Positions 19,355 to 63,624 of a DNA stretch of 64,000 nt are shown here, one piece after another; the first letter of the stretch is position 1; each line of letters begins with the position of its first letter. This DNA comes from Pirellulales bacterium. GTDB lineage: Bacteria; Planctomycetota; Planctomycetia; Pirellulales; JAEUIK01. The stretch spans positions 62,001 to 126,000 of the forward strand of contig JAIBBZ010000009.1 of assembly GCA_019694435.1 (NCBI GenBank), in the 5' to 3' direction. The notes beneath the pieces were generated by a model. The model did no database searches. It worked only from the letters and a program-made list of their open reading frames with translations, and was not told the DNA's origin. Position numbers and translations under genes: made by a program.

Positions 19355-19384
19355 TTGACCGTTGACCGCCCTCTTGCATAGGAT
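19355..19384 (+). promoter_or_regulatory. Candidate sigma-70 promoter for the micro-ORF unit
   Basis: TTGACC at 19355-19360 is followed after 18 bp by TAGGAT at 19379-19384, a fair match to a housekeeping promoter. Transcription would begin near 19391 and give a leader of about 95 nt before the extended Shine-Dalgarno element. A second TTGACC at 19362 has no suitable -10 partner. The 19032-19354 stretch upstream has no credible gene; it holds only small GC-rich inverted repeats. Confidence 0.45.
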
Positions 19385-19486
19385 GCCCTGGCTTTCGGAG
19401 TCGGGGCTAACGTGGTCTCGGCTTGGCTAGAGAAGATCCTGGGGAGCCGCTTCTGGTGCGGCAGGACCGGGATTGGATTTAGTAAG

Positions 19487-19500
19487 AAAGGAGGTGATCC
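19487..19500 (+). promoter_or_regulatory. Full-length 14-nt Shine-Dalgarno element
   Basis: The bases AAAGGAGGTGATCC are the exact reverse complement of the universal bacterial 16S rRNA 3' end (GGATCACCTCCTTT). The GGAGG core ends 8 nt before the ATG at 19503. Ordinary genes here use 4-6 matching bases, so a complete 14-nt match is exceptional and is the reason the ten-codon ORF is taken seriously. Homology to 16S DNA ends at this point, so it is not an rRNA gene fragment. Confidence 0.85.
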
Positions 19501-19502
19501 GC

Positions 19503-19535
19503 ATGTGTAGTGGTGACCAGAGGTGGCTCGGATAA
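19503..19535 (+). CDS. Ten-residue micro-ORF (MCSGDQRWLG) behind a perfect SD
   Basis: ATG 19503 to TAA 19533-19535 encodes MCSGDQRWLG. It is placed 8 nt after the complete anti-SD complement at 19487-19500 and lies inside a unit bounded by a candidate promoter (19355-19384) and a strong terminator (19615-19661). A short hairpin, GCAGCC paired with GGCTGC, follows the stop codon. It could be a translated micropeptide, a leader peptide, or a decoy that loads 30S subunits on a small RNA. Nothing about its function is known to me. The downstream symporter begins 155 bp after the terminator, so attenuation of that operon is one option; an independent small transcript is another. Confidence 0.55.
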   Translation: MCSGDQRWLG

Positions 19536-19614
19536 CGAGCAGCCGACGGGCTGCCCGCGGCGCGTCCTCGTGACGTTTCCTGCTATCCGCAGCCACAGTC
19601 TGACGATCGATTCA

Positions 19615-19661
19615 GAAGGAGCCGGCCGAGGCATCGCCTTGACCGGCTCCTTCGTTTTTTT
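19615..19661 (+). terminator. Strong intrinsic terminator
   Basis: An 11-bp perfect stem, GAAGGAGCCGG (19615-19625) with CCGGCTCCTTC (19643-19653), closes a 17-nt loop and is followed by G and seven T residues (19655-19661). It is the best intrinsic terminator in this half of the window. It ends the micro-ORF transcript rather than the quinone oxidoreductase gene 580 bp upstream, and would block read-through into the symporter operon unless an alternative fold forms. Confidence 0.85.
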
Positions 19662-62458: not shown

Positions 62459-63624
62459 CAGAACGCCACGCCCGCGCGAATCATGAACGTATCGCCGGGA
62501 TCGAAATCGGTCGGGTCGACCTCGTACTTGATCTCGCGGTTGAACACATAACCGATTTCAGCCCAGCCGCGCGGACCCTGAAAACGCAGCCACTCGATGC
62601 CCAGGCGAATGCGGATATCGTTCAAGTCGAACGAGTCCTTGGTGCCCGAGGCACGGGTGATGGTCCACGAGCCGCCCCCGTATTCGCCGGCCAGGTAGAG
62701 CCAGAGATCGGTGTTGCCGACGGTGGTGAGGCGTTCGGAGAGCTTGGGATAGGGGAACACCAGCTCGTAGCGCGTGTCAGGGTCGGGTGTCCAGATCACG
62801 CCGCCGGCCGGCAGGAGTTTGACGTTGTTGCGATCGAGGTAGACGATACCGGCCGTCAGCTGCCAGGCCTGGTTGAGCGTGAGCACGCCGAGGCCCCGGC
62901 CCAGGAATCGCATGCTGTGATTGTCGAAATAGGAGAAGTCGGTATAGGCCCCGATGCGAAAGCCCAGATCGGCGCCGACGGTGGGACTGAACTGCGGCCG
63001 CCAGGCCGTATCGAGGTAGGCGTCGTAGATCTGCGCAGGCAGGTCGGGACCACCGCCGGGCGGCGTTTCCGGGCCGTCCCAAAGGTGGAGTGAAAAGCCG
63101 GGCGTAATCAAGAACGGCTGCGGTGCGCCGAACAGCGGAACCGCAAACGTGGCGGCCAGGTCCGTGTCGTTCATTTCGACGTCGAGACCGCCGTTGCCGT
63201 AGATATAGGTCTGCTGGATGCGAATTTCTTGCAGGAACTTCGTCGCGCTGGCCGGCAGCCAGCTACTGGGCTGCGTGAAATAGTTCTGCTGCGGCGCCAA
63301 GGTCGGCGGTTGCAGCGCCGGGTCGCCGTAGATGTCCCACTGCGGCGTCGGTGCCTGGATCGTGCCCGGGAGCGTCGCTCCGGGCGGCGTATAGGTCGGC
63401 GGGGTGCCTGGCGGCAGATACTGCGGTGTTCCGGGCGGCGCGTATTGCTGCGCGTAAGGCGGCGCGTAGGGTGCCGGGGTGCCCGGCGCCTCGGCCACGG
63501 GCGAGGGAAACGTCACGCGTTGGGCATTCGCGCAGGGCGACAATGCCACACAACTCCAAGCCGCGAAGAATCCGGCCCGAAGGCGTACCGAGCTCTTTGA
63601 ACGCCACGCCGCTAGCAACTGCAT
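62458..63624 (-). CDS. Outer-membrane beta-barrel-like protein, copy 1 (DUF6268-like)
   Basis: A 388-residue paralogue of the next gene on this strand. A signal segment (AGFFAAWSCVALSPCANAQR) is followed by a low-complexity linker of PPGTPQYLPPGTPP type repeats, then barrel-like strands (FAVPLFGAPQPFLITPGFSL, TDLWLYLAGEYGGGSW, WAEIGYVFNREIKYEVDP) and a C-terminal phenylalanine (MIRAGVAF), the outer-membrane insertion signal. ATG 63624 has AGGTG about 6 nt upstream. Its TGA shares a base with the ATG of the downstream copy, so the two are translationally coupled. Confidence 0.75.
   Translation of the reverse strand: MQLLAAWRSKSSVRLRAGFFAAWSCVALSPCANAQRVTFPSPVAEAPGTPAPYAPPYAQQYAPPGTPQYLPPGTPPTYTPPGATLPGTIQAPTPQWDIYGDPALQPPTLAPQQNYFTQPSSWLPASATKFLQEIRIQQTYIYGNGGLDVEMNDTDLAATFAVPLFGAPQPFLITPGFSLHLWDGPETPPGGGPDLPAQIYDAYLDTAWRPQFSPTVGADLGFRIGAYTDFSYFDNHSMRFLGRGLGVLTLNQAWQLTAGIVYLDRNNVKLLPAGGVIWTPDPDTRYELVFPYPKLSERLTTVGNTDLWLYLAGEYGGGSWTITRASGTKDSFDLNDIRIRLGIEWLRFQGPRGWAEIGYVFNREIKYEVDPTDFDPGDTFMIRAGVAF

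Follow-up and report, generated by a model that had tools for sequence, protein, structure and literature searches.

Comparison of related loci identified a stand-alone small RNA gene, with a predicted promoter and terminator, in a 64,000-nucleotide stretch of DNA from a Pirellulales bacterium (hereafter the window, that is, the whole stretch analyzed). The same comparison established that the gene normally occurs once per genome and that it keeps a short open reading frame (ORF) together with two helices, P1 and P2. We infer, with a probability of about 50%, that its ~270-nt RNA could act in trans as a structural switch gated by the ribosome. The earlier note on this DNA had pointed to a transcript, framed by a promoter and a terminator, that combines a match to the whole anti-Shine-Dalgarno (anti-SD) sequence with a micro-ORF. 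Such a discrete RNA, with a near-complete anti-SD match, is indeed recovered here and is conserved in relatives. The 14-nt SD, the ten-codon ORF, the promoter and the terminator all lie where that note had placed them (Table 1), as does the run of seven T residues (19655-19661), although the terminator stem, given there as 11 bp, comprises 17 pairs with interruptions (19615-19632 with 19636-19653). The predicted RNA folded with z = -4.35, better than 200 of 200 shuffles, and almost every copy in the window's clade, the nearest relatives among them, has the TTGAC/TAnnAT promoter elements 125-142 nt upstream of its GGAGG.

Table 1. Predicted parts of the small RNA locus, in window coordinates
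Feature	Position	Strand	Evidence
Sigma-70-like promoter TTGACC-N18-TAGGAT	19355-19384	+	9/12 consensus; 0.1 expected in shuffles
Predicted transcript, ~270 nt	19391-19661	+	Promoter and terminator positions; 5' end inferred from promoter
5' hairpin with conserved GCTAACGTGG (19406-19415)	19398-19424	+	Alignment of relatives; fold
Second 5' stem domain, weaker conservation	19426-19483	+	Fold
Extended SD AAAGGAGGTGATCC	19487-19500	+	Exact complement of own 16S 3' end
Ten-codon ORF MCSGDQRWLG and stop (ATG 19503, TAA ending 19535)	19503-19535	+	ORF of 9-15 codons in 80/80 distinct planctomycete/Sumerlaeota copies
GAGGTGG conserved within ORF, in three reading frames across clades	19520-19526	+	Comparison of copies
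Helix P1, 5' strand, over ORF 3' half into stop codon	19519-19534	+	Fold; covariation
Hairpin P2, AGCC-GACG-GGCU	19539-19554	+	96.5% paired; each of the five pairs shows compensatory changes
Variable hairpin P3, within P1	19562-19576	+	Fold
Helix P1, 3' strand, with conserved GCAGCCAC (19589-19596)	19584-19601	+	Alignment of relatives; covariation; fold
Intrinsic terminator, GC-rich stem and T7	19615-19661	+	Sequence; fold

A 101-base query gave matches in 17 of 58 related genomes, a count that includes the source genome and one locus (L018) matched over its 3' part only. The alignment of these relatives retained the TTGAC..TAnnAT promoter, the 5' hairpin with its GCTAACGTGG loop, the SD, the ORF, the AGCC-GACG-GGCU hairpin, a downstream GGCAGCCA and the terminator. 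A covariance model built from 15 planctomycete copies, R1, found matches in 63 of the 297 genomes of the order Pirellulales and in 47 of the 294 genomes of a Planctomycetota sample, both being lower bounds under the strict filters applied, and nearly always exactly one match per genome (G016, in the order, has two). The conservation of the SD and micro-ORF for which the earlier note had suggested searching related genomes was thus found at both levels. The weakest matches were accepted on the full architecture, ordinary strong SDs reaching E ~1e-4 with R1; those in Gemmiger, Prevotella and Desulfobacterium (E 5e-5 to 5e-3) proved on reading to be ordinary or coincidental strong SDs and were rejected. 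The same architecture was present in Sumerlaeota, and a Chloroflexota sample gave no match with it. Judged by these comparisons, the RNA gene is conserved across Planctomycetota, normally as one copy per genome where it is found; a literature search returned no paper describing this planctomycete RNA.

The ORF of the locus is kept, whereas its peptide is not. Each of the 80 distinct copies read out from planctomycetes and Sumerlaeota has a start codon 5-11 nt past GGAGG and then a stop after 9-15 codons, compared to a mean of 10% and a maximum of 22.5% in shuffles. The encoded peptides are nearly constant within the window's clade, MCSG(N/D/I)QRWL(A/V/G), but unrelated between clades (MCSGNQRWLA, MEYDCSSQRGGTA and MSSSRTREVAAR), since the clades translate shared nucleotides in three different frames: GAGGUGG yields QRW in the window's clade, RGG in the Blastopirellula/Planctomycetales-like clade and EVA in both Sumerlaeota and Actinobacteria, and the near-identical ACCAGCGAGGTGGCTG gives QRGGC in the planctomycete locus L157 versus SEVA in Sumerlaeota. 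Moreover, where the stop is shifted by one base relative to GAGGUGG, the start is shifted likewise. Within the window's clade the constancy reaches synonymous sites too, as would be expected under RNA constraint, and a peptide conserved in one reading frame, the mark of a small-protein gene, was not found among the clades compared. Since start and stop move together and the ORF is kept while its frame varies, selection appears to preserve not a peptide but an ORF translated up to a stop in this position. This suggests that what matters is the translation event and not the peptide it yields. Three actinobacterial loci (L086, L119 and L120) have no ATG, GTG or TTG; by eye, their EVA-register frame is open from an AUC or CUG spaced from the SD as expected of a start, a hint that they may initiate at a non-canonical codon.

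The fold was evaluated as 17 proposed pairs (P1a, P1b and P2) over an alignment of 92 copies. These pairs were kept in 82.4% of cells and 13 of the 17 showed changes on both sides, with a covariation of 0.295 compared to 0.166 +/- 0.007 in shuffles (reached by 0 of 500) and to at most 0.06 when the pairs were slid. Every pair of P2 showed compensatory changes. As R1 lacks the seven P1a pairs (GGUGGCU with AGCCACC), these had no influence on how the copies were aligned. RNAalifold alone recovered P2 only, and P1 thus rests on the named-structure count, single-sequence folds and the first alignment; on this comparative evidence, P1 is a covarying helix that pairs the 3' half of the ORF and its stop codon with the downstream GCAGCCAC. 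When the P2 3' arm was instead paired with GCAGCC, 86.9% of cells were paired and 18 double changes counted, versus 84.4% and 7.8 in shuffles; this test, weak because its columns are shared with P1 and P2, puts the pairing modestly above its controls. Another candidate, GGCU with the P2 5' arm, was rejected for lack of covariation.

The GGAGGTG core of the SD was nearly invariant in the same 92 copies. The source genome has the 14-mer AAAGGAGGTGATCC twice, once at this locus and once (C9:34562) as the antisense of its 16S rRNA 3' end; the full complementarity claimed for the 14-mer in the earlier note is therefore exact for the source organism. AAGGAGGTGNTC at start-codon distance occurs in only one other place in the 6.1-Mb assembly. 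In the RGG clade, a (G)GATCACC-type sequence (GGATCACC, the 16S 3'-end motif) precedes the terminator in 21 of 38 copies, compared to a shuffle mean of 0.55 and maximum of 4; outside this clade it was found in 1 of 42 copies, and the window's clade is without one. Because this 16S 3'-end copy is paired with the SD of the same RNA in the predicted folds of L039, L100 and L130 (the latter from Thalassoglobus neptunius KOR42, a cultured planctomycete), our data suggest that SD accessibility may be regulated in at least one clade. In L046-L049, the SD variant GTTCC goes with a downstream GGAACCTC and not GGATCACC, a pattern that would fit a masking copy changing along with the SD sequence.

The closest described RNA is Ms_IGR-5 (Rfam RF02471), a stand-alone actinobacterial RNA with GGAAGGAGGUGGUCC in its 5' part, an ORF of ~12 codons, GAGGUGGCUG, a stop codon, GCAG(U/C)CACC and a terminator. 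The planctomycete RNA presents the RF02471 parts in the same order (extended SD, 9-15-codon ORF, GAGGUGG, stop, GCAGYCACC, terminator). Differences are also seen: Ms_IGR-5 uses the EVA frame whereas the planctomycete RNAs use QRW or RGG, and the Rfam model is without the planctomycete 5' domain. A pattern scan of named genomes, in which loci were chosen by shared motifs, collected planctomycete, Sumerlaeota and actinobacterial loci, and Rfam assigned seven of its actinobacterial loci to RF02471. To avoid this choice by motif, the planctomycete-only R1 was run, as an independent check, on 27 loci selected by Rfam alone; it matched 26 of them where Rfam places the RNA (E 2e-6 to 0.07 over 87 kb). 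In the reverse direction, the RF02471 gathering cut-off of 45 bits was reached in 0 of 118 planctomycete order genomes; three weak best RF02471 matches (G068, G030 and G085) coincide with R1 loci, and the window, below the RF02471 cut-off, gave no match to any Rfam family, RF02471 included. Given the R1 result on the one hand and the cut-off on the other, the planctomycete RNA and Ms_IGR-5 are probably homologues with the same working parts, and the window RNA is not filed as a member of RF02471.

In Streptomyces avermitilis, Ms_IGR-5 is reported as a transcript of its own (PMC8780764); it is also reported to be expressed in S. lividans (PMC8079986) and to carry ribosome footprints in two mycobacteria, M. 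smegmatis and M. abscessus (PMC4974804). The authors of the last study caution that noncoding RNAs often carry such footprints, which do not prove translation. The earlier note knew of no described system of this exact form; this has to be qualified, as Ms_IGR-5 has the form, though no known function. In the planctomycete 5' hairpin (window 19406-19415 and its equivalent in L038-L049), a UAACG(U/C) or UUACGC loop motif is conserved; the Rfam model of Ms_IGR-5 contains nothing equivalent, and it is possible that this loop constitutes a separate binding site.

We propose the following sequence of events for the switch: (i) a ribosome would bind through the near-complete anti-SD match and translate the 9 to 15 codons, whatever their amino-acid content; (ii) upon reaching the stop codon, which lies within P1 (GGUGGCU..UAA with GCAGCCAC), it would open this helix; (iii) the RNA would hence have two states, one closed (P1 and P2) and one in which a ribosome sits on the ORF and the GCAGCCAC arm is unpaired; and (iv) the freed arm could re-pair with the P2 3' arm or with another RNA. 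In the large sister clade, the GGATCACC copy would mask the SD of its own RNA and thereby set the ease of occupation. The supply of free initiating ribosomes would then be what the RNA reports or responds to. We infer that the opening of P1 during translation is the function of the RNA and that the output is exerted in trans.

In trp-type attenuators, too, a short ORF has a strong SD, and its translation could select among alternative hairpins. Unlike them, the planctomycete RNA has neither a conserved downstream gene nor runs of a regulatory codon, and its terminator lies apart from the helices that would switch. The rnTrpL/peTrpL system of Sinorhizobium meliloti provides a terminated, trans-acting RNA with a leader ORF (PMC7298713). 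It originates from a trp attenuator and yields a functional peptide, whereas the planctomycete RNA is without a downstream operon or conserved peptide.

Other readings of the locus account for part of these observations. The RNA could be a ribosome sink, whose extended SD would capture and hold 30S subunits or ribosomes and which would act by sequestration, as the earlier note had envisaged. The near-complete anti-SD match is kept family-wide, the second SD-like GAGGUGG within the ORF could slow the ribosome, and the E. coli RyeG small RNA, able to sit on 30S/70S (PMC8058203), offers a precedent; RyeG differs in being a prophage gene for a 48-residue bacteriostatic peptide. We nevertheless consider a sink unlikely: a single chromosomal copy would have to be very abundant to matter, and sequestration needs neither a fixed-length ORF ending in P1 nor a covarying helix over the stop codon. 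An RNA that engages ribosomes thus remains from that proposal, but a plain sink leaves the 9-15-codon length and the stop-codon helix unexplained. The highly loaded micropeptide also suggested there (MCSGDQRWLG in the window) appears improbable, although the ORF is always present and its product near-constant in the window's clade, as unrelated peptides arise between clades from three-frame reading of the same nucleotides and the clade's constancy extends to synonymous sites. Either of these two explains less of the data than the switch.

The remaining alternatives concern the surroundings and the origin of the locus. The earlier note had also considered a leader controlling the symporter operon, and the symporter (Pfam SSF) does start, on the same strand, at ATG 19816, the 155 bp after the terminator being confirmed. 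A leader or attenuator of this operon is nonetheless very improbable: a strong predicted terminator lies between, no symporter was matched beside any of the ~130 related loci searched, flanking proteins are common to close relatives only and differ between genera, and flanking genes vary in strand among relatives, often being opposite. The conserved downstream gene that marks a cis-acting leader or attenuator is thus missing from the related loci; with flanks not conserved and no symporter near relatives, the RNA is, on the comparative evidence, a separate gene and not a symporter leader. We practically discount two further origins, chance and the displacement of a 16S 3'-end antisense copy: the 14-mer equals 16S antisense, but the similarity ends after the SD, hence the rejection of a 16S antisense fragment, and the conservation of 70-130 nt with covariation across a phylum refutes chance.

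Returning to the ribosome-gated switch, a broader reading, which we put forward more tentatively than the switch itself, is that of an ancient RNA class common to Planctomycetota, Sumerlaeota and Actinomycetota. In such a class, peptide-agnostic translation of a mini-ORF would be the input, occupancy would flip the RNA between two folds and release a trans-acting arm, and the lineages combining the SD with a 16S 3'-end copy would possess a self-masking sensor of initiation capacity. Ms_IGR-5 has so far been an orphan actinobacterial small RNA in Rfam; with a planctomycete and Sumerlaeota relative, the class would be far older and wider than one Rfam family, and what selection appears to keep in it is the SD, a short ORF whatever its sequence, and a helix covering the stop codon. 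The orphan RNA would then allow a direct test of whether, in a stand-alone RNA, bacteria use the act of translation itself as a signal, regardless of the peptide made.

Elsewhere in the window, the Rfam tRNA model has no match, so that a tRNA-Ser called by ARAGORN at 63304-63378 may be false or degenerate; its anticodon, ACT, is an unusual one for AGU.
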